From: a virus
Direction: 5' to 3' (one strand)
IMG/VR virus record: IMGVR_UViG_3300020213_000126
Location: 1-21,658 of that record
DNA length: 21,658 nt
Shown here: one piece after another, positions 2,532 to 21,658 of the stretch
Position numbering within the stretch: position 1 is the first letter of the stretch
Layout: each line of letters starts with the position of its first letter
Notes under the pieces: generated by a model
The model's database searches: none
Told to the model about the DNA's origin: nothing
The model's input: the letters and a program-made list of their open reading frames with translations, nothing else
Made by a program: the position numbers and the translations under genes

Positions 2532-3866
2532 GTGCCACGCCTAGATCGCGGTGCTCTCGATCACTTCTACCAGGAGATTCCTGGCTGGTGTGATTACGCG
2601 GACTATTACGCGAAGGTCATCGCCGGCCTTCCTGATGGTGCGCGCATAGTCGAGGTCGGCGCCTGGCAAGGCCAGAGCACAGCGGCGCTGGGTGTAGAGA
2701 TCGCGAATTCGGGGAAGGCCATCCGTTTGGATGTGGTCGATCACTTTCGCGGGTCCGACGCGAGCGAAGGCCCAACGGGCGCGCTCGGGCTGCCTGACCT
2801 TCGCCAGCGCTTCGACAGACATACGGAGCCGATTAGACATCTGATCCGCAACGTCCACCAGATGGCCTCAGTCGACGCTGCGGCTCTTTACGACGACGCT
2901 AGTCTCGATTTCGTCTGGATCGACGCCTCGCACACGGCGCCAGACGTGCTGGCCGATCTGAATGCCTGGTGGCCGAAGGTGCGGCGCGGCGGTATCCTGG
3001 CCGGCCACGATGCGGATATGGTGGGCGTGAGCGCTGCCGTCGTGCCCTGGGGTCATATGGCCGGCGTGACACCTCGGCCAGTCTCCCTGCGGTCATGGGA
3101 AGTCCGCAAGCCCTCGGGACTCGGCAGTCTGCATGTGCCAGTCGGACGACGTAAGTGTCTCGTCGTGGTCGCCTCGAATGAACGAACGATCTACCGCGGC
3201 ACGGTCGAAAGCCTTGTGAAACTCGGATGGGGCGCGCGCGTCACGACGGCCGGCACGATGCACGGATTCGACGACGTGCAGTTTACGTGGGTCTCGCGCC
3301 ACACGCGCGTGGACGACCTCCGTAATGAAGCCGTCCGTATGGCGATCGGCACGGGCGCCACACATTTACTGTTTCTCGATGCCGACATGACCTGGCCTTC
3401 GGATCTGCTGGCCAGGATACTCGCGCATCACGACAAGGGCGTCGTTTCTGGGCTCTACTTTCTGAAACAGTGGCCGCACTGGCCGGTCTCGCTTGCGTCT
3501 CCGTCTGTGAATCTCTCAACGGGTGGGGTGGATTACATTTACGACGACGCGGCCGTGATCGACGTGCACTTGCGTCCGGCATCCCTCGTCGGTATGGGCT
3601 GCACATTGATCCCGATGTCGGTGATCGACGCGATGCCGTCTCCCTGGTTCGAGTATCGTCAGAATAGTCACGGCTTCTGGACGGTCACTGAAGACGTGGC
3701 GTTCTGCCAGAAGGTCTCCGCGCTCGGCTGTCCAATCTGGCTGGACCCGTCGATAAAGTGCGGCCACATTGGCGCAGAGCCGGTCACGGAGCCGTGGTTC
3801 CTGCGGTCTCAAGTGGAGCAGCGTGCCCTGGCGGACATGAAGCAGCGCGAGCAGGTGTCCGCATGA
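2532..3866 (+). CDS. Methyltransferase-glycosyltransferase fusion protein
   Basis: 444 aa in two enzymes' worth of sequence. Residues about 20-195 look like a class I SAM methyltransferase (Methyltransf_24-like): SAM motif I is IVEVGAWQGQST (39-50), an acidic strand DVVDHF follows (67-72), then FVWIDASH (127-134) and RRGGILAGHD (151-160). Residues about 208-425 look like a GT-A glycosyltransferase: CLVVVASNER opens the domain (209-218), the metal/nucleotide-sugar DxD is LFLDADM (280-286), TED (386-388) is a possible catalytic acid, and CGHIG (410-414) may supply the metal-binding His. The GTG start is the first possible codon after an in-frame stop at 2523, and no clear ribosome site precedes it. 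The gene overlaps portal by ATGA. Likely role: sugar transfer plus O-methylation on virion protein or another glycan. The acceptor is unknown. Confidence 0.8.
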   Translation: MPRLDRGALDHFYQEIPGWCDYADYYAKVIAGLPDGARIVEVGAWQGQSTAALGVEIANSGKAIRLDVVDHFRGSDASEGPTGALGLPDLRQRFDRHTEPIRHLIRNVHQMASVDAAALYDDASLDFVWIDASHTAPDVLADLNAWWPKVRRGGILAGHDADMVGVSAAVVPWGHMAGVTPRPVSLRSWEVRKPSGLGSLHVPVGRRKCLVVVASNERTIYRGTVESLVKLGWGARVTTAGTMHGFDDVQFTWVSRHTRVDDLRNEAVRMAIGTGATHLLFLDADMTWPSDLLARILAHHDKGVVSGLYFLKQWPHWPVSLASPSVNLSTGGVDYIYDDAAVIDVHLRPASLVGMGCTLIPMSVIDAMPSPWFEYRQNSHGFWTVTEDVAFCQKVSALGCPIWLDPSIKCGHIGAEPVTEPWFLRSQVEQRALADMKQREQVSA

Positions 3867-11908: not shown

Positions 11909-14900
11909 GTGCCTCTGAGCGCGAGTCTCAGCCTCGATGTGAGCAAGTTCGAGCAAGGTCTGAAAAAGGCCGAGGTCGAGTTGCAGACGTTTGAGCGCGC
12001 GACGAAATACACCAACCGCGATCTCAAGCGGCTGATGGAAGAGTTCAGCGGACAGAAAGTCGTGGTCGAAGCGGCGCGTATGTCGGAGGCGGTGACGCGG
12101 ATCGGTGGCGCGTCGAAGTTGACCGAGGGCGAGCAGCGACGCGTGAATGCGTCGGTGACTGAGGCGATTGCGAAGTATCGCGCGCTGGGGCAGGAGGCGC
12201 CGGCGCACCTGGTGAAGTTACAGGCTGAGACGGCGAAAGTCGAACGCGCCTCGACCTCAGCGGGGTCGTCAATCGCGAGGATGGCGGCGTCATTCACGGT
12301 TGCCGGCCTCGCGGAGTCGGCAATTCGTGGCATGGCGAATGGTCTCGGTGACTTCGTCTCGCGCGGCGGCGAAGTCTCAGGGATGCGAAACGCTTTCGAC
12401 AAACTGTCTGGCGGTGTGGACGCGGCAAACATCCGTATCGGAGCCATTCGGAAGAGCACGCTTGGGCTCGTCGATGACTTCTCCGCGATGCAGGCGTCGA
12501 ACAAAGCGACATTGCTGGGCTTGGGGCTCGGTGCTGAGCAGATGGGCGAACTGGCGAAGACGGCATCGATTCTCGGCCGTGCGATGGGCCAGGACGCCAC
12601 GAAGTCGCTCGATGACCTCATCACGGCCTTGGGCCGGTCCTCGCCGATGATTCTCGACAACCTCGGCCTGACGGTCAAGGTTGGAGAAGCGAATGATCGG
12701 TATGCGGCGTCGCTCGGGCGGACGGCAGACTCCTTGTCGGACGCGGAAAAGAAGCAAGCGTTCATGAACGCGGCGATGGACGCGGCAAAAGACAAAGTCC
12801 ACACGCTCGGTGCGCTCACACTCACCGCGTCTGACCGTCTCTCGCAGATGTGGACATCCGTCAAGAACGTGTCCGACGCGACGGCCTCATGGGCGGTGTC
12901 CATTGGGCCGGTCAATGCGGGTCTGGAAACGATGGTGAATCGGATGCGGCTCACTGAAGAGCTGTTCCGCGGCGGTCCACGGAAGGCGCTGGAGGAATAC
13001 AAGCGACAACTCGGCGATACGCTGCCCACGGTGCAGGCGCTCGAGGACAATTGGCGCGGTCTTCAGGCGCCCGCGGGCGCGTTGACGATCTCCACCGAAG
13101 AGATGGCGGCAGTGACGAAGACGCTCACGAAGGAATTCGACGCGAACGTCAAAGCGGCGGAAGCGTTCAACGCGCAGTTGCAGAGCTTTGGCGGCGGCGC
13201 GGCAATCACGAAGGCGAATGAACTTGTGCGTGTGCTTGGTGCGATGGGTGGCCCGCTGAAGGTGCTGCCGTCGCAGCTCGAGACGATGGCAAAAGCCATG
13301 CGCGACGCGTCAGAAGCGGCGTTGCTGATGGGCCGTCATGACCTCGCGCAGCAATATGCGGCGCTGGCCCGCACGCTCACGCCCGTGGTGCAACTCCAGC
13401 AGCGATACAACGTCACCATTGGCCAGTTTGTGATGAAGTCTGACGACTATTCACAGGCCGTGCGAGACCAGATCGACGTGCTGACGAAGCTCGACGACAC
13501 GCTGTCGTTTGGCGTGCTGCCGAACATCGGTAAGCTCGCGCAGGCGTGGGCACCGTTGAAGGCGGCAGTCGATGCGACGAATCCGCGCATGCTCACGTCG
13601 ACGTCGAGATTAGATGCGTTGGCGCAGTCGTCCGCGCAGACGGCCACGGCGTTGCGTGCATTATCCGGCGCGCTCGCTGAGATGGCGCAGATCTCTGGCA
13701 AGGCGAATAGCGGGCTCGGCACGCTCTCGACTATCGTCGCCAGTATGTCCACGGGGCAGCAAGCGGCCAGTGGCTTTACGACGGCTTTAGCGGGGATGCG
13801 GGACGGGTCGATCAAGACGGGTGCTGGACTGATCCAGATGGCGGCGTCTGTGACGACCCTCGTTGCGGCACTCAACCAAGCGACAAGTTCCAGCAGCCGG
13901 GCGCAGAACGCGCTCAGTGGGCTAGCGATGGGGGCCTCTGCTGGCGCCACGATCGGCACCGCGTTTGGTCCGGCCGGGACTGGTATCGGCGCGGTCATCG
14001 GTGGCGCGATCGGCGGGCTCGTGGGCCTTTTTGGCGGCGCGAAGAAGAAGGCGTCCGAAGTCGGTGCTGTGGTCACGGACTGGGCACGTCTGATTGCCGA
14101 CGCTACGGATGAGACTGGCCGACTGTCGAGGGCCATGCGCGATACCTTGGCGACGATGATGAAGATGGGCACTGCCACCAAGGAGATCAGAGACTACCTC
14201 CAGGGTCAGAGCACCTCCGCGATCGCAGGGTTCAACGCCGTGGCGGCTGATGGACTGACGAAGTGGCAGCGCTACGGGGACGCGGTGAAGGTGGCCGCGG
14301 AGGCTCGTATGAAAGCGCTCGAAGACGGTAGCGCAGACGACACGATGTCGCCGAGTAGCGACAAAGGCGGCAAGTTCCGCGCACTAGACGACGGTCTTAC
14401 CGACGCGCTGAGGGCGCAGCAGGCCGCATCCGTGGCCGCGGGCCCTGCGCTGAAGGACCTCGGCATCCAGGCGGTGGCGGCGTTCAACGCGGCCACCGCC
14501 TCCGGGATGAGCTTCACAGACGCGCTGAAGCTGATTCAGCCGGGCATACAGTCGCTCATCGGCGCGTACGGTGCATTGGGCCTGAATATCGATGACGCGG
14601 CGCTCAAAGCCATTGCGATGCAGAGCACGCTACTCGCGGACAACCCGGCGTTGCTGGCCGGTGTCGATGGGCTCGCGCAAGGGATGCTCGCGCTGGGCAA
14701 CATGGGGATGCTCAACGAAGAGACGTTCGCATCGATGCAGCGGACCGCGCTCGACATGTATACGCGCATCCAGGGCGAAGTGGCGAAGGCGGGCGGGAGC
14801 ACGCGGGATGCGTTGCTGCCGATGCAACGCTACCTTCAGGAAGCGGCAGAAGCGGCAAAGGAACTGGGTATTCCACTCGACGAGAACACGCAGATGATGA

Positions 14901-15298
14901 TCGACCAGTCGCGAGAACTGGGCATCTGGAAAGACAAGGCTGTCGACCCGATGCTCGAGGTGCGGGACGCGGCGCTGGAAATTCGGGACGCGATTCGTGA
15001 ACTCATCGCAGAGATGAAGCGTATTCCTAGCCGCGTATCGACCGAGATCAACACGCGGTATACCCGCGACGGGGAGCCATCGCCAGGCGGCGGCACAAGC
15101 GGCGGTGGTGGCACGGGTGGCGGTGACACTGGGGGCCGCGGGTTCGTGGCACCGAGTGACCCGCGCATCACGGGCGGCGTGTCTCCGTCGAGTGGCGGAG
15201 AGACCACGATCACGGTGCCGGTCTACATTGACGGTCGCCAAGTGGCTGAGGCGTCCGCGCCCTATCTCGTGGGCGCATTTGAACGGCGGGGCGTCTAG
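11909..15298 (+). CDS. Tail tape measure protein
   Basis: 1129 aa, the longest gene here; it fixes tail length. By the usual rule of about 0.15 nm per residue a tail near 170 nm would be expected (inference). Residues 1-120 are charged and helical. The segment near 235-290 (LDDLITALGRSSPMILDNLG ... then SDAEKKQAFMNAAM) is characteristic of tape measure proteins. A glycine-zipper hydrophobic stretch lies near 672-712 (GASAGATIGTAF, GAVIGGAIGGLVGLFGG), a likely membrane-inserting element. A Gly-rich linker lies near 1053-1077 before a short C-terminal domain. No lysozyme or peptidase motif and no cysteine were seen. The GTG start has GGAG 10 nt upstream. Confidence 0.93.
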   Translation: MPLSASLSLDVSKFEQGLKKAEVELQTFERATKYTNRDLKRLMEEFSGQKVVVEAARMSEAVTRIGGASKLTEGEQRRVNASVTEAIAKYRALGQEAPAHLVKLQAETAKVERASTSAGSSIARMAASFTVAGLAESAIRGMANGLGDFVSRGGEVSGMRNAFDKLSGGVDAANIRIGAIRKSTLGLVDDFSAMQASNKATLLGLGLGAEQMGELAKTASILGRAMGQDATKSLDDLITALGRSSPMILDNLGLTVKVGEANDRYAASLGRTADSLSDAEKKQAFMNAAMDAAKDKVHTLGALTLTASDRLSQMWTSVKNVSDATASWAVSIGPVNAGLETMVNRMRLTEELFRGGPRKALEEYKRQLGDTLPTVQALEDNWRGLQAPAGALTISTEEMAAVTKTLTKEFDANVKAAEAFNAQLQSFGGGAAITKANELVRVLGAMGGPLKVLPSQLETMAKAMRDASEAALLMGRHDLAQQYAALARTLTPVVQLQQRYNVTIGQFVMKSDDYSQAVRDQIDVLTKLDDTLSFGVLPNIGKLAQAWAPLKAAVDATNPRMLTSTSRLDALAQSSAQTATALRALSGALAEMAQISGKANSGLGTLSTIVASMSTGQQAASGFTTALAGMRDGSIKTGAGLIQMAASVTTLVAALNQATSSSSRAQNALSGLAMGASAGATIGTAFGPAGTGIGAVIGGAIGGLVGLFGGAKKKASEVGAVVTDWARLIADATDETGRLSRAMRDTLATMMKMGTATKEIRDYLQGQSTSAIAGFNAVAADGLTKWQRYGDAVKVAAEARMKALEDGSADDTMSPSSDKGGKFRALDDGLTDALRAQQAASVAAGPALKDLGIQAVAAFNAATASGMSFTDALKLIQPGIQSLIGAYGALGLNIDDAALKAIAMQSTLLADNPALLAGVDGLAQGMLALGNMGMLNEETFASMQRTALDMYTRIQGEVAKAGGSTRDALLPMQRYLQEAAEAAKELGIPLDENTQMMIDQSRELGIWKDKAVDPMLEVRDAALEIRDAIRELIAEMKRIPSRVSTEINTRYTRDGEPSPGGGTSGGGGTGGGDTGGRGFVAPSDPRITGGVSPSSGGETTITVPVYIDGRQVAEASAPYLVGAFERRGV

Positions 15299-16762
15299 GT
15301 GCCTGTCGCGACCTTGCGTGTCGGCGGTGTCGCACGCGCGATGCGTGCCGGGTCGCTCTCGGTCATGTGGAACGTCAATGGTCGGTCGACGCTCCGTGCG
15401 CGCGTGGTGACGTTGTCTGGCACCTACTCGCCCGCGTTCGACGACATCGTGCTGCTCGAGGACGCGGCGGCGGCGACGATGTTCGCCGGCTACGTGACCG
15501 ACGTGCGGAAAATATGGCTTGGCGCGAATACGTCGTCCGCCTCCACATTCGAGACGGAGATCACTGTCAGCGACTACTCGGCGTATACGACACGGAGGCT
15601 GATCGCGGCGTCGTCACCCGCGGGCACTGTGGCGCGCGATGCGGTCGATGCGATTGTGGCCGCCACGCTCGCACCGTTCGGCGTCACGCGCGACCCCGGC
15701 ATGGCCGCAGGCGCGACTCTGGGTGCGCTCGTCTACGATTTCGCGACGGTCGAAGCGGTCTTCAACGACCTCATCAAGCTGGCGGCGCCGGCTGGATGGG
15801 TGTGGTACATCGACAACCTGAAAGTGCTTAAGGCGTATCTACCGAGTGTCGGCGCAGCGCCGTGTCCGTGGACGATGACGGACGCCTCGTCGAAAATCGC
15901 GGGCGGGGACATCGAGATCACCAAGACGCGGCAGGATTATGCAAACCGCGTGTATCTCGTCTACAACAACGGCACGAGCACGCCGGCCAATGTCACGGCG
16001 AACGATGCTGCAGAACAGGCACTCTACGGGCTTTATGAGACGGTGATTCGGTCTGACGGCCCGTTCAATGCGACGACCGCACAAGCGGTGGTGGATGCGG
16101 CGCTCGTGAAGTTCGTGACACGCCCACGCACACTCGTGTTTCGCACTGATGAACCAGGCGCGCGGCCGGGCCAGACGCTCACGGTGAACATCACCAATCG
16201 TGCGGCGGGGGACTTCTTGATTACGGGCGTGGAGATGGTGGACTTCGGCGGCGCCGTGTTGCTGTACACCATCACGGCGGTTGAAGGCGCGACATTTCCC
16301 GGCGACTGGCGGGATACCGTCCGGGAGTGGAGCGGCGGCGGCGCATCCTCGGCGCTCGTGTCGAGTGTGACGATCATCACCTCGACGGCCCCGGCGCGGG
16401 TGTCCTACTTCCTCGGCGGCTCTGGGATCGCGGCGGAACAGTCGGCCGGGCCGAGCGTGCTGGTGGCTGTGGGCTACATCGACGTCATGATCGACACGGC
16501 GGCGCTGCCGGCTGGCACGAGTTGCACGGCGGTCGTGCAGTGCAAGACGGCGTCCGCGGGCGCGGGCGTCACGCCACAGGTCTACAACATGACGACGGCG
16601 GCGGTGGTGGGCACGGGGTCGCTCGTCGTGGGCACGGCGTGGACGACGGTCACGTTTGCGGTCACGCTGGCGGCCGGCGCGAACACGTATCGGCTCCGCA
16701 TGACGCCGGACACGGCGGCCGTGGACTGCTTCACCTTGGGGTATCTGGAGGTTGGGCGATGA
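15299..16762 (+). CDS. Tail hub / distal tail-associated protein
   Basis: 487 aa. Position right after the tape measure fits a distal-tail or hub (Tal-like) protein at the tail tip. Residues 1-100 show alternating strands (RVVTLSGTYSPAFDDIVLLED, MFAGYVTDVRKIWLG, EITVSDYSAY), and the middle has the 'W.i..k....' strand followed by DYANRVYLVYNN (213-224), a pattern common in gp27-like hub proteins. From about residue 345 on, after a Gly-rich turn, the sequence is Ala/Val/Thr-rich and beta-like, possibly a carbohydrate-binding or jelly-roll domain. GTG 15299 directly follows the tape measure stop. The gene end overlaps the fibre gene by ATGA. The exact hub subtype is uncertain. Confidence 0.72.
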   Translation: MPVATLRVGGVARAMRAGSLSVMWNVNGRSTLRARVVTLSGTYSPAFDDIVLLEDAAAATMFAGYVTDVRKIWLGANTSSASTFETEITVSDYSAYTTRRLIAASSPAGTVARDAVDAIVAATLAPFGVTRDPGMAAGATLGALVYDFATVEAVFNDLIKLAAPAGWVWYIDNLKVLKAYLPSVGAAPCPWTMTDASSKIAGGDIEITKTRQDYANRVYLVYNNGTSTPANVTANDAAEQALYGLYETVIRSDGPFNATTAQAVVDAALVKFVTRPRTLVFRTDEPGARPGQTLTVNITNRAAGDFLITGVEMVDFGGAVLLYTITAVEGATFPGDWRDTVREWSGGGASSALVSSVTIITSTAPARVSYFLGGSGIAAEQSAGPSVLVAVGYIDVMIDTAALPAGTSCTAVVQCKTASAGAGVTPQVYNMTTAAVVGTGSLVVGTAWTTVTFAVTLAAGANTYRLRMTPDTAAVDCFTLGYLEVGR

Positions 16763-19269
16763 GACTAGGACTCGTGGTGCTGCTGCTGCTTGTGGGGTCG
16801 GCTGAGGCACAGACGGTGGTGGGGTCGCGGTTCCAACTCTCGACGGGTCCCTGCACGATCAGATCGGGCAGTGGCGCACCTGCGACGGGCCTAGGCGTGG
16901 TGTGTGACACCTATATCAGGACCGACAGCCCCTACACGATTTCTGTGAAGACGGCCGGCTCGACGTGGAGCGAAATCTACCGCGCGGGCGGCACGGATGT
17001 GGCGGTGGCGGATGGCGGCACGGGGTTGTCGTCCTACACCACGGGGGATGTGCTCTACGCGAGTGGGGCCGGGACGCTTGCCGGGCGTGCGGCGGTGGCG
17101 TCAGGGCAGGTGCTCACGAGTGCGGGCACGAGCACGGCACCTGTCTACTCGGCCACGCCGTCGGTGACGTCGCTCACGGCGTCTGGCGCGGTGCAGGGCG
17201 CGACGGTCGTAGGCACGACGTCGATGACCACGCCCACGCTCACCGCCTCGGCAAATCTCACGCTGAGCCCCGCCGGTGACATCATCACGGCACCTACGGG
17301 GCTCGACATTCTGCCCGGTGTTGGCTACACGACGAACATCGGGATGTTGACCAACAAGTATCTGACGCTGCACGCGGCTGAGCTATGGGTCGAGACGCTG
17401 GTTGCACAGAACACGATCGCGACGATTGGCGGGCGCATCCTCGTGGGGCCGACGACGATACTCACGAGTGACCTCGCGGCTGCTGCCACGTCGATGATTG
17501 TCAAGCACAACCAGATGATCAGCGGAGACCGTGTGGTCATGCAGGCGAACAATAGCCTGGAGTGGTTCGCGATCACCAGTGCGGCGTCTGGCGGTGGCCC
17601 CTACACCTACACGATCACGAGGAATCTTGACGGGTCCGGCGCGAACAATTGGGCGGCCGGTGATGCCGTCTTTAATTCTGGCACCACCAATAACGGCTAC
17701 ATCGACCTGTACTCGGTGGCGGGCTTGCGACCTGGGAGTACTGCGGGTCCGACTATCGTTGGCAACGAGCGGACTGGCGCGACCTTTAGCGATATTGCGC
17801 CGCGCTGGGCCATCGGCAACCTGAACGGGCTCTACGGCTACAGTGCGAGCACCTACGGTGCAGCGTTCGGTGACAATAACAATGCTTGGGTGAAGATTGA
17901 CCCCACGAACGGCGTCCGCATCGGGCGCGCAGGAACTACGAACTTCCAGGTCGATGCGGCCGGTAACGCCACGTTCGTCGGCAACGGCACGTTTGGCGGA
18001 AGCGTCACGGTCGGCAGCGGCGGGCGGAACCAGATCACGAACAGTCAGATGATGCGCTTCACGGCCGCGGGCTTCGCGCTATCGAGTGACGGGGTGGCGT
18101 GGAGCGCAGGGGCGGCACCGGGGGCAGACTGGGGCGCTGAAGGAGTTGGCGGAACCTCTGGGTTAGGCTACAACCAGAATTGCGCGTTGGCGTCGTGGTT
18201 CGTAAATGGAAGCGGAAGCTGCTATTTCCAAATGATAGGCACGCCATCCGTGGGCACAAATTCTAATACCTATGGCCCGGCCTACCCTGTCACGGCTGGG
18301 GATACCTATGAGTTTAGCTTCTTTTGTGGCAACCATCGCGGGGCCGCAGTGAATGCTGAGATTGCGTGGTATAACGCCGCGAATACGAATATCAGCACAT
18401 CGCAAGGCGCGAACGGCACATGCTCTGACGGCGCAAAGCTTGGCGGCACGACCTGGGACACGTGGGGTCGTGCGTTTGTGATTGCGGTGGCCCCTGCTGG
18501 AGCGGTGCGTGGGCATCCGCACCTCAGACAGTATTACCCCGGTGCGCAGCTTGACCCATTCTTATTCTACACGCGTCTGTACTTCGGACAGGCGACCACT
18601 GGGCAGACGACGGCAAGCCCGTGGAGTGCGGCGGGGATCTCACAGATCACTGGTGAGCATTTCGCTACTGACATGGTGATCGCAAACACGATCCGCAGTA
18701 GCGGTGCGACAGCACTCGGAACAGGCTCGGGCTATTGGCTGGACGCGACTGGCACGCCGACGTTCCGTGTGGGGGTCCCTGGCGGTAATGAGATGAAGTG
18801 GGATGGAACGAACCTCACGCTGACGAGCACGAACTTCTCGTTTGGGCCGAGTGGTGTGGTGATTGCGCCTTCTGATAGTGCTAGTTTTGAGCCAACAAGA
18901 GCATACGCGTGGACGGTACCAACTGGACATCTCGGCGTCTCCGGTTTAGATGGTTCAATAAATGGGCGTTTAATCAAAATTGATTCCAAGTGGTCAGGCA
19001 CTGGTAGCCGAACAGTTACCGTGCAATTAGCTGCTATATACGAGGGGTCTGCTGGTTCGCCGAGTAGCACGTCAGTCTCCGCGTCAGCGAATTCCTCTGG
19101 CGGCACATTGTCGTTAAATGCGACCACTCGTACACTTTTCAGCGTTGGTGAGGTCTACATTGCGGCTATTGACAACGGGAACGGGAAAGTCGTTTGCATC
19201 AAATCAGATGGCGACCTCGGCACATGTAACGCCACCACTATAGGGACCAGCACATGCACATGCGGATAA
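16759..19269 (+). CDS. Tail-fibre-like protein with N-terminal signal peptide
   Basis: 836 aa. The N-terminus MRLGLVVLLLLVGSAEAQ is a clear Sec signal peptide (Arg, 10-residue hydrophobic core, A-E-A before Gln18). GGAGG (16747-16751) lies 7 nt before the ATG, so this start is firm. Residues 78-130 contain the GGTGLSSYTTGDVLYASG block and a GQVLTSAGTS block, both typical of phage tail fibres. The middle is Gly/Thr/Asn-rich beta repeats. Ten cysteines (C32, C49, four in the 18,170-18,430 region, four at the C-terminal end) contrast with none in capsid, tail tube or tape measure. The last 130 codons are much more AT-rich. It is probably the receptor-binding fibre, but the export signal makes a secreted surface protein a real alternative. 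Confidence 0.75.
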   Translation: MRLGLVVLLLLVGSAEAQTVVGSRFQLSTGPCTIRSGSGAPATGLGVVCDTYIRTDSPYTISVKTAGSTWSEIYRAGGTDVAVADGGTGLSSYTTGDVLYASGAGTLAGRAAVASGQVLTSAGTSTAPVYSATPSVTSLTASGAVQGATVVGTTSMTTPTLTASANLTLSPAGDIITAPTGLDILPGVGYTTNIGMLTNKYLTLHAAELWVETLVAQNTIATIGGRILVGPTTILTSDLAAAATSMIVKHNQMISGDRVVMQANNSLEWFAITSAASGGGPYTYTITRNLDGSGANNWAAGDAVFNSGTTNNGYIDLYSVAGLRPGSTAGPTIVGNERTGATFSDIAPRWAIGNLNGLYGYSASTYGAAFGDNNNAWVKIDPTNGVRIGRAGTTNFQVDAAGNATFVGNGTFGGSVTVGSGGRNQITNSQMMRFTAAGFALSSDGVAWSAGAAPGADWGAEGVGGTSGLGYNQNCALASWFVNGSGSCYFQMIGTPSVGTNSNTYGPAYPVTAGDTYEFSFFCGNHRGAAVNAEIAWYNAANTNISTSQGANGTCSDGAKLGGTTWDTWGRAFVIAVAPAGAVRGHPHLRQYYPGAQLDPFLFYTRLYFGQATTGQTTASPWSAAGISQITGEHFATDMVIANTIRSSGATALGTGSGYWLDATGTPTFRVGVPGGNEMKWDGTNLTLTSTNFSFGPSGVVIAPSDSASFEPTRAYAWTVPTGHLGVSGLDGSINGRLIKIDSKWSGTGSRTVTVQLAAIYEGSAGSPSSTSVSASANSSGGTLSLNATTRTLFSVGEVYIAAIDNGNGKVVCIKSDGDLGTCNATTIGTSTCTCG

Positions 19270-19643
19270 TCGCGGCGATTGTTTTCTGCTCGGCTACGCT
19301 TTCAGCGCAGTCACTTGTTGTTTCGGAAAAGCTTCCGCTCGGCCTCTCTGAAGGCAATGTGTGGCCGGCTGAACTCGACGGCGATCTACGGACGCTAGAA
19401 GCCATTCAGTACTATTACGTGCCTGCACTTGGAGCTGAATTCATCCGCGGTGTGGCTTTTCGTGGAGGGGCCATATGCAAAGGCACATGGATTGACCCGT
19501 GGGGGCAAGTGTTTGCGTCTAAGGAGTTCCAAGAAGGGCCATTCAGCTACCTCTATGGTCAAGTGTTCACGACGGGCATCGCTAAGTTCGTCGCGCAGTC
19601 AGAGCTCCACGTCTGGGTGATTGACATCGGTTACGGCTGCTGA
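19254..19643 (+). CDS. Small secreted protein of unknown function
   Basis: 129 aa. Residues 1-18 (MHMRIIAAIVFCSATLSA) form a Sec signal peptide with likely cleavage before Gln19. The mature part has just two cysteines, C75 and the final residue C129, which could pair in the periplasm. It contains many aromatic residues and Gly (AIQYYYVPALGAEFIRGVAFRGG, GPFSYLYGQVF), suggesting a small beta fold. I do not recognise a family. The ATG overlaps the fibre stop by 16 nt; AGGGA (19243-19247) is the ribosome site. An in-frame ATG at 19260 is possible. It has lower G+C than the genes on either side. Confidence 0.7.
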   Translation: MHMRIIAAIVFCSATLSAQSLVVSEKLPLGLSEGNVWPAELDGDLRTLEAIQYYYVPALGAEFIRGVAFRGGAICKGTWIDPWGQVFASKEFQEGPFSYLYGQVFTTGIAKFVAQSELHVWVIDIGYGC

Positions 19644-19652
19644 AGGACAATG

Positions 19653-19934
19653 ATGCGTTACCTGACCCTCGTCTTCGCCCTCGCCATCCCGTTGACCCTC
19701 TCAGCGCAAGCGCCGATGTCCGAGGTGAGTACGCTGAAGGCCGAGGCGCATGTGCTGCGCGTGCAGGTCGTGCAGCTTCGCGCGGCCCTCGCACAGGCGC
19801 AGGCAGAGATGGATCTCGGGAAGCTCACCGCGGAACGCGCTCAGATTGAGGCGATGCTGCGCGAGGAGCTGAAGCCGGCCGAGGGCAGCACGTTCGACTG
19901 GGCCACGCTCACGTTTAAGGAGCCAGCGAAATGA
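19653..19934 (+). CDS. Secreted coiled-coil protein of unknown function
   Basis: 93 aa. MRYLTLVFALAIPLTLSA is a Sec signal peptide, with cleavage probably before a Gln. The mature chain is a long amphipathic helix (SEVSTLKAEAHVLRVQVVQLRAALAQAQAEMDLGKLTAERAQIEAMLREEL), predicted coiled coil, ending in a short tail. No lipobox cysteine follows the hydrophobic core, so it is not a typical o-spanin lipoprotein. The gene overlaps the next one by ATGA. ATG 19653 has AAGGA (19643-19647) 5 nt upstream; the adjacent ATG 19650 is closer than ideal. Periplasmic partner of the next gene's product is an inference. Confidence 0.7.
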   Translation: MRYLTLVFALAIPLTLSAQAPMSEVSTLKAEAHVLRVQVVQLRAALAQAQAEMDLGKLTAERAQIEAMLREELKPAEGSTFDWATLTFKEPAK

Positions 19935-20350
19935 GCGAGCAGGGCTCGTCGTATCTGGCCGCGGTCATCACGGCGGTCGGCGCCGTGGTGCTCACCGCCT
20001 GGAAGACCACCACGCATTTTCTGTCAACCCGCGCCACGCAACGCGCCGATGTCGACCGGCAGCGCATCGACGATCTCCGCGCCATAATCACGAGTGACCT
20101 CGACTTTGCCACCGGGCTCCGAAACGAATTGCGCGAGGACGTCACGCGGATGAAGGGGCAGATGTCGGAGATCATCAGCGAGAATCTGGCCCTCCGAAGA
20201 GAAGTCAGCTCGATCAGCCGAGAAAAGCACACCCTCCGAAACGAGCTGGCGCTCGTGAAGTGGCGGGTGGTCCAACTGGAAGGGGCGCTCTCTGCGGCCG
20301 GCATCGCGGTGCCCACTAATCCCTTTACCGTGGCTGAGGGCGCACCATGA
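19931..20350 (+). CDS. Single-span membrane coiled-coil protein (candidate i-spanin or holin-like)
   Basis: 139 aa. A short polar N-terminus precedes one hydrophobic span at residues 8-24 (YLAAVITAVGAVVLTAW), followed by a long charged helix (about 38-125) with coiled-coil character. This topology, with the bulk outside the membrane, is that of Rz-type i-spanins; a holin is the alternative. It sits between a secreted coiled-coil protein and the transglycosylase-like lysin, with ATGA overlaps on both sides, so a lysis role is the best reading. No family signature was recognised, and no other holin is visible in the window. Confidence 0.65.
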   Translation: MSEQGSSYLAAVITAVGAVVLTAWKTTTHFLSTRATQRADVDRQRIDDLRAIITSDLDFATGLRNELREDVTRMKGQMSEIISENLALRREVSSISREKHTLRNELALVKWRVVQLEGALSAAGIAVPTNPFTVAEGAP

Positions 20351-20868
20351 CCCCAGAGCAGCTCGTCGCGACCGTCGTCCCTGCGGCGCTGGCCTACCTG
20401 CCTGAGTCCATGCGCGAGCGGCCCGCGGTGGCGCAGCTCGTGGCGATTGCGTTGCAAGAGTCCGGGCTGCGACTCCGGCGCCAGATTGGCAGCTACCGGC
20501 GCGACCGCACACCGGTGTATGGGCCGGCGCGTGGCTGGTGGCAATTCGAGCGGGACGGCGGCACGGCCGCGGTGCTTGAGCACCGGACGTCACGCGACCA
20601 TGCCGGGCGCGTCTGTGATGAGCGGGGCCTGGTCGGCGCGACCCTGCGCGAGGTGCATCTTGCGCTTGAGCATGACGACGTGCTGGCGTGCGTCTTCGCG
20701 CGGTTGTTGCTGTGGACGGACCCTCGGGCACTGCCGCAGTCAGCGGAAGATCACGCGCTGGGGTGGGCGATCTACCTCTCGACGTGGCGACCGGGGAAGC
20801 CGAAGACGTTGACATGGCCTAGCCACGTGGCGACCGGGTGGCGCGTCTCGGAAGGATGGCCGGCGTGA
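20347..20868 (+). CDS. Lytic-transglycosylase-like lysin
   Basis: 173 aa. LVAIALQESGLRLRRQ (31-46) carries the AxxxES-type motif of lysozyme/lytic transglycosylases, with E38 as the likely catalytic acid. GPARGWWQFERDGGTAAVLEH (59-79) corresponds to the 'GlwQf' block of that fold, and LGWAIYLSTWRPGKPKTLTWPSH (138-160) is a pattern I associate with phage members of the group. It probably degrades peptidoglycan for host lysis or during entry. No signal peptide is seen, so release would need a holin. ATGA and GTGA overlaps link it to its neighbours. Confidence 0.8.
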   Translation: MTPEQLVATVVPAALAYLPESMRERPAVAQLVAIALQESGLRLRRQIGSYRRDRTPVYGPARGWWQFERDGGTAAVLEHRTSRDHAGRVCDERGLVGATLREVHLALEHDDVLACVFARLLLWTDPRALPQSAEDHALGWAIYLSTWRPGKPKTLTWPSHVATGWRVSEGWPA

Positions 20869-21658
20869 AGCCCGTCGGCATCTTCTCGGTTGATCCCGCG
20901 ATTCAGACGTGCCCCCCGTGGGCGCAATTCGCGTTGCTCGCGGACTGGTGTGACTTCGCCGAGGCCGTGCGGATGTCCCGAGAGACGGGGGTCTGGTGGG
21001 TGCTCGGCATCTACAGCTACGCGCCGGACGAGCCGCTGGCGGGGGTGCTCCCGGCGCTGATCGCGCGGATAGACGCAGCCGGGTTGCGGCCGTACCTTGT
21101 GGGCACTTGCTACTCGGAAGAGTGGTACGGGCGATTCAAGGGCGGCGAGTTCGACACGCTCGCGAGCACGACCGGGATGCACCTGACTGAGGCGGGCCAG
21201 TGGAAGGGCGCCGAGCTGATCCACTGGTGGACGGGCCAGCAGCACGCGGCGATCAAGGCGGCGCTCCCAGGCGTGCCAATCGCGTGGATTGACGGCTACG
21301 TCAACGACGACCGCGCTCATGGGGCGTGGTGGTATCAGCCGGTCCCTGATCACGTCGATGTGCTCGCCCTCGAAGGTTACGTGCCTGCCGGCGGGACATG
21401 GGCGGCGCACGTCGAGCCCTTCCTGCGGCACGCAGTCGCGACGCGCCGTGAACCGATCGTGCTCATCGTGCAGGGGTTTCACGCCCCTGGTGATGCGTTG
21501 TGGGGCGACGGGCCGACTGAGGACGGCCTTGCGGGGACAGCGCGGTGGATGGCCCACCCGCGTGTCGTGTCGGCGTGGATTTTCGACTGGCATTCACGGC
21601 CGGGTATGCGCGGGCTCGACGTGCTGGTTATGCAGCCGCGGTTACTCGCGGCAGTAGG
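20865..21658 (+). CDS. TIM-barrel glycoside-hydrolase-like protein (partial, runs off window)
   Basis: At least 264 aa with no stop before the window ends. Strand segments at regular spacing suggest a (beta/alpha)8 barrel: VGIFSVD (4-10), VWWVLGIYSY (43-52), RPYLVGTCYSEEWY (75-88), VPIAWIDGYVN (137-147), VDVLALEGYV (164-173), PIVLIVQGFH (197-206), VVSAWIFDWH (234-243). Acidic residues at strand ends (E85/E86, D143, E170, D241) fit a glycoside hydrolase active site. GTG 20865 overlaps the lysin stop as GTGA. It may cleave cell wall or surface glycans, but the substrate and even hydrolase activity are inferred. Confidence 0.65.
   Translation, partial: MKPVGIFSVDPAIQTCPPWAQFALLADWCDFAEAVRMSRETGVWWVLGIYSYAPDEPLAGVLPALIARIDAAGLRPYLVGTCYSEEWYGRFKGGEFDTLASTTGMHLTEAGQWKGAELIHWWTGQQHAAIKAALPGVPIAWIDGYVNDDRAHGAWWYQPVPDHVDVLALEGYVPAGGTWAAHVEPFLRHAVATRREPIVLIVQGFHAPGDALWGDGPTEDGLAGTARWMAHPRVVSAWIFDWHSRPGMRGLDVLVMQPRLLAAV

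Follow-up and report, generated by a model that had tools for sequence, protein, structure and literature searches.

Exported proteins and tail fibres in described phages

Tailed phages are taught to assemble entirely in the cytoplasm. An exported phage product is nevertheless known from T5, whose Llp is a phage-made lipoprotein that serves in superinfection exclusion. The set of three genes described here resembles Llp as a phage-made exported product that possibly acts at a receptor; it differs in that it is not a lipoprotein, is fibre-derived and lies in a late tail operon.

A second comparison is offered by the phages of Porphyromonas gingivalis, which copy the Q-rule (PMC10367356, PMC10653852), a signal-peptidase preference reported as Bacteroidetes-specific (PMC5837995). 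As in the present locus, their genes carry Sec signal peptides that expose a glutamine and match the signal-peptidase context of the host (PMC10367356). Unlike the present set, that of P. gingivalis comprises five genes of unassigned function (PMC10367356), whereas one gene here encodes a predicted fibre and another a partner whose signal peptide co-varies with that of the fibre; moreover, the likely host is an acidobacterium and not a member of the Bacteroidetes. Two further systems concern single genes of the set. Gene 1 is like the tail or central fibres of siphoviruses in its position after the hub, in the hub-fibre fusions of its relatives and in its fold matches, and differs from them by a signal peptide and by disulphide-type cysteine statistics. 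Gene 3 is like the two-component Rz/Rz1 spanins in being a small coiled coil, predicted to be periplasmic, whose gene lies close to those for holin-like and endolysin proteins, and differs from them in that its signal peptide is of type I, not of the lipoprotein type, and in having homologues without a signal peptide. No exported tail fibre was found in the openly licensed papers searched, and no exported tail-fibre module among the isolate phage records searched.

Layout of the late region

The window, that is, the whole stretch of DNA analysed here, is a virus record of 21,658 bases with 24 predicted genes. It has the late-region order of an HK97-type siphovirus: terminase, portal, protease, capsid, connectors, tape measure and tail hub (15299). 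The hub gene is followed on its 3' side by genes 1, 2 and 3, then by a gene for a transmembrane coiled-coil protein, a gene in the endolysin slot and a gene cut by the contig end (Table 1). The endolysin slot is filled in L002, L003 and L150 by proteins that, by eye, are GH24-like, M15-like or NlpC/P60-like; in the window it holds a protein of a family without assigned function, which may be an unrecognised type of endolysin. Elsewhere in the window, a 444-aa ORF between terminase and portal (2532-3866) has methyltransferase-like and glycosyltransferase-like matches and overlaps the portal start.

Table 1. Features from the tail hub to the contig end, in window coordinates. SP, signal peptide; a slash marks the predicted cut.
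Feature	Position	Strand	Basis
Tail hub protein, 487 aa, no SP	15299..16762	+	Weak YQBQ/phrog_400 tail matches; homology to the L028 and L158 hub-fibre fusions in their N-terminal part
GGAGG ribosome-binding site of gene 1	16747..16751	+	Sequence
Gene 1, predicted exported tail fibre, 836 aa, 10 Cys	16759..19269	+	SP scan; homologues; fusions; phage fibre and CBM matches of a low-confidence fold model
Gene 1 predicted signal peptide, cut AEA/Q	16759..16809	+	Rule-based scan
Gene 1 conserved central fibre domain, residues 165-395, common to SP-less fibres	17251..17943	+	
Gene 1 beta-sandwich region, carbohydrate-binding-module-like, residues 500-620	18256..18618	+	Weak Foldseek CBM4/CBM16 matches; position taken from the second confident region of the gene 1 model
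Gene 2, predicted small exported protein, 127 aa from ATG 19260	19260..19643	+	SP LSA/Q; L150 homologue; 2 conserved mature Cys
Gene 3, predicted exported coiled-coil protein, C-terminal FDW motif, 93 aa from ATG 19653	19653..19934	+	SP LSA/Q; family present in 24 loci, some of them lacking the SP
Protein with one TM segment and coiled coil, holin- or i-spanin-like, no SP	19931..20350	+	Weak hol-like phrog_2658 match; same slot in L003 and L150
phrog_3108 protein, endolysin slot	20347..20868	+	phrog_3108, E=5.6e-35
Protein without family match, cut by contig end, no SP	20865..21656	+	Family searches

Three adjacent signal peptides

Signal peptides were called, in the window and in its relatives, by our own rule-based scan and not by SignalP. 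Sec/SPI signal peptides were found in only 3 of the 24 window genes, and these three are adjacent. Gene 1 begins at 16759 with MRLGLVVLLLLVGSAEA/QTVV, gene 2 at 19254 (or at the internal ATG 19260) with M(HM)RIIAAIVFCSATLSA/QSLV, and gene 3 at 19653 (or at the ATG 19650) with MRYLTLVFALAIPLTLSA/QAPM, so that glutamine is the +1 residue in all three. The N-termini are as an earlier sequence-only reading had given them. A GGAGG upstream of 16759 and an ATGA overlap with the hub stop support the start of gene 1, and an AAGGA upstream of 19650/19653 supports that of gene 3.

Shuffling the N-termini of the other 21 genes gave an SP-like sequence in 1.1% of trials, which is taken as the false-positive rate; for genes 1-3 themselves the figure was 3.3%, and 0.5% for a signal peptide with glutamine at +1. 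The chance of three adjacent signal-peptide genes among 24 is p = 0.011, and on the scan and the shuffles a chance origin of the three was rejected. Purifying selection acts on the mature parts, and the signal peptides diverge yet stay signal peptides. Judged from these sequences, the three proteins are likely to be exported and cut by the host machinery. The signal peptides could instead be unused, hydrophobic N-termini of ordinary virion proteins that stay uncut and perhaps form membrane-touching tips. Fibre homologues without a signal peptide do look like plain virion parts, but AxA/Q is kept while the remainder of the signal peptide diverges, glutamine stands at +1 far above its level in shuffles, and the even-cysteine bias described below also speaks against this explanation, which we consider improbable.

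The sequence-only reading had seen in the consecutive exported set a departure from the standard siphovirus plan, and had suggested searching metagenomic phages for the same order. The set proved both real and recurrent: all three genes occur in the same order in L150, a 40-kb relative whose fibre is 59% identical to gene 1 over the aligned mature part, and in which the only other signal-peptide calls are three weak ones of low score. L021/L022 and L209 likewise have fibre, small gene and coiled coil in succession, each with a signal peptide ending before glutamine, and the pair of fibre and coiled coil was found in 17 non-duplicate phage loci. Among the relatives, glutamine occupies a plausible +1 position, by eye, in 21 of 22 fibres with a signal peptide and in 15 of 16 coiled-coil signal peptides. 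The phages with the module are uncultured and of soil type; the isolate phage records searched contained no recognisable relatives of genes 2 and 3, and for gene 1 only a weak partial match of 19%.

Gene 1 as the predicted tail fibre

Gene 1 had been described as a neighbour of the fibre gene; from its homologues, notably those fused to a hub, its predicted product is the tail fibre itself. Searches of Pfam, PHROGs and NCBIfam gave no family match for it. Profile scans of viral and genome contigs yielded 87 loci carrying its central domain; the gene has a signal peptide in about 22 of them and none in most. In two loci the homologue is fused to a hub: residues 1-464 of the L028 protein (L028:6447-9884) correspond to the hub and 451-1132 to the fibre, and in L158 (L158:6081-9995) the two parts are residues 1-486 and 613-1030. 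Since hub and fibre homologues form one protein there, the fibre would belong to the tail in those phages, and the fusions are indirect but good evidence that it joins the tail. Both fused proteins lack a signal peptide, which indicates that such a fibre can also be made in the cytoplasm. Fibres with and without a signal peptide are co-linear (L209 and L206, 43% over 455 residues; L021 and L045, 42.5%).

The AlphaFold model of gene 1 is of low confidence overall (pLDDT 51) with two better regions; around the central domain, residues 230-310 and 330-400 reach a pLDDT of about 75-88 for most of their length. Its fold matches are to phage fibres, (minor) tail proteins and carbohydrate-binding modules. 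In a tree of the fibre domain the signal-peptide label needs at least 10 changes, but most deep forks are weakly supported. The relatives' records of 40-72 kb, which are possibly incomplete, showed no further copy of the fibre domain.

The cysteines of the fibres differ with the signal peptide. Per 1000 residues, fibres with a signal peptide have 6.7 cysteines, against 3.0 in high-GC fibres without one (Mann-Whitney p=5e-5). Even cysteine counts are found in 18 of 21 of the former and 24 of 53 of the latter (p=0.0017), and, with near relatives removed, in 14 of 17 fibres with a signal peptide (p=0.011); kinship between the fibres is only partly removed in these tests. Paired cysteines of this kind would fit folding in an oxidising compartment.

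Gene 3 as a probable coiled-coil partner

Gene 3 gave only weak coiled-coil matches in Pfam, PHROGs and NCBIfam, and a first scan with its profile matched L002 only. A model of the coiled-coil family placed a member 0-2 genes 3' of the fibre in 24 loci, plus L206 and L209; many members have a C-terminal FDW/WDW-like motif. Fibre and coiled coil agree in their signal-peptide status: among non-duplicate loci, 17 have both with a signal peptide, 5 have both without one (L028, L045, L046, L050 and L206), and none is mixed (p=3.8e-5). Four of these five pairs form one clade (99% SH-aLRT), and L206, which is outside the tree, closely resembles it; because the loci without a signal peptide come down to about one clade, the co-variation may reflect a single joint switch, in which case p=0.056. 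Taken together, these patterns suggest that gene 3 probably encodes a partner of the fibre.

Its position next to the endolysin slot, and its predicted nature as a periplasmic coiled coil, would also suit a role in lysis. Together with the transmembrane coiled-coil gene at 19931, gene 3 would then take the place of spanins, as an unconventional pair for lysis of the outer membrane, and its signal peptide would be unrelated to the fibre. Seventeen of 19 loci, and likewise the window, showed no o-spanin lipobox; L059 has a very weak Rz-like match (E=0.07), and in one survey 91 of 677 phages had no spanins that could be found (PMC6139136). Gene 3 itself, however, also has no lipobox, and its homologues lack a signal peptide exactly where the fibre does, a state that a spanin would not tolerate unless the hosts had no outer membrane. 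The existence of these homologues makes a spanin less likely, and the candidacy of gene 3 as a lysis protein was lowered for this reason; we consider the lysis pair improbable.

The middle slot and other predicted exported proteins

Gene 2 also had no family match in Pfam, PHROGs or NCBIfam, and the confidence of its fold model (55.8) is too low for use. Its homologue in L150 stands in the same place, is 61% identical and shares two conserved mature cysteines. Across the relatives, what stands between fibre and coiled coil varies. The middle gene of L013 has a signal peptide and its homologue in L040 has none, although the L040 fibre has one, a difference which implies that the middle slot is less strictly exported than fibre and coiled coil. 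In L158 the fused fibre has no signal peptide but the following gene has one ending before glutamine.

Other proteins with a signal peptide ending before glutamine occur in these phages. Small ones are encoded past the endolysin slot or further 3' in L003 (about 14624-15089), L006 (11759-12220), L090 (15500-15889) and L155 (14200-14685), those of L090 and L155 appearing related, and a 1549-aa phage protein, possibly a beta-helix, is encoded 3' of the coiled-coil gene in L013 (10836-15485).

Glutamine at +1 and the likely hosts

Of the contigs with the fibre module, L070 and L090 were binned to Acidobacteriota, in G001 and G056 respectively, and a single one, L068, to Planctomycetota; hosts are assigned by this binning, which is uncertain for virus contigs. 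Among predicted exported proteins of the sampled Acidobacteriota, glutamine was at a plausible +1 in 17 of 30 in G056, 7 of 11 in G012, 1 of 3 in G001 and 0 of 4 in G008; the Planctomycetota samples held too few signal peptides for a frequency. Some Acidobacteriota appear to favour glutamine at +1 (G056, L110-L119 and L166-L185; G012, L120-L124). Glutaminyl cyclase PF05096 is present in G001 and was not found in G056, G012 or G008. As the likely host phylum seems to favour glutamine in two sampled genomes, the shared residue suggests adaptation to the host and is weak evidence of a joint function. The A/Q context common to the three signal peptides would largely reflect that of the host signal peptidase, which explains enough of it for A/Q to be rejected as proof of joint function.

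A possible assembly route and the decoy alternative

The reading that we favour, at a little under an even chance, is an exported tail-fibre module that consists of genes 1 and 3 and has a variable accessory in gene 2. The late operon would supply the fibre, its coiled-coil partner and usually a small middle protein, with translation of the fibre coupled to that of the hub. Host Sec would export all of them, and signal peptidase I would cut at AxA/Q. These steps are well supported by the genes as read. Outside the cytoplasm the fibre would fold with disulphide bonds, the coiled-coil protein acting as its dedicated partner, be it as chaperone, as trimeriser or as a segment of the fibre. This step is supported by the cysteine statistics and the co-variation, from which the exact role of gene 3 is deduced. 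At lysis, the exported fibres would meet cytoplasm-made tails and dock on the hub as the receptor-binding end of the virion, a step that we infer and regard as possible, at somewhat less than an even chance. Virion assembly as a whole might then be split, with heads and tails cytoplasmic, disulphide-bonded fibres and their partner periplasmic, and the two joining only at lysis; this fuller picture is more tentative still. We know of no tailed phage that attaches an exported fibre.

Docking fits the hub-fibre fusions, the coupling to the hub and the single fibre copy, whereas export itself fits a decoy on the envelope side. In that case the exported fibre, with its carbohydrate-binding modules and partners, would occupy glycans or receptors on the surface of the infected cell, and would block superinfection or stop progeny from sticking to debris, while the virion binds by another protein. 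The fibre is indeed predicted to be exported, is cysteine-rich and has CBM-like regions; other large downstream proteins without a signal peptide could be the virion binder in several relatives; and for the Q-rule exported proteins that P. gingivalis phages also encode, a modification of the outer membrane has been suggested (PMC10367356). Against a decoy, gene 1 sits in the fibre slot, coupled to a hub to which it is fused elsewhere, the records of 40-72 kb show no other copy of the fibre domain, and no lipobox or outer-membrane anchor was recognised. A decoy appears rather unlikely, and docking is slightly preferred over it. Of the envelope-directed module proposed in the sequence-only reading, export is supported; as gene 1 is a predicted fibre and gene 3 follows the compartment of the fibre, the set reads better as an exported fibre module than as an envelope accessory next to the fibre. 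Surface display, superinfection exclusion, receptor masking and envelope disruption, the roles suggested in that reading, are each possible.

Meaning for phage biology

The frequencies in the sampled genomes suggest that glutamine at +1 is common in some Acidobacteriota and is mirrored in their phages. A phage lineage whose sole fibre copy bears an export signal and oxidised-looking cysteines would imply either assembly in two compartments or an exported decoy. The exported fibre module would in any case represent phage-encoded exported proteins of an unusual sort, and would be categorically new if two-compartment assembly were shown.
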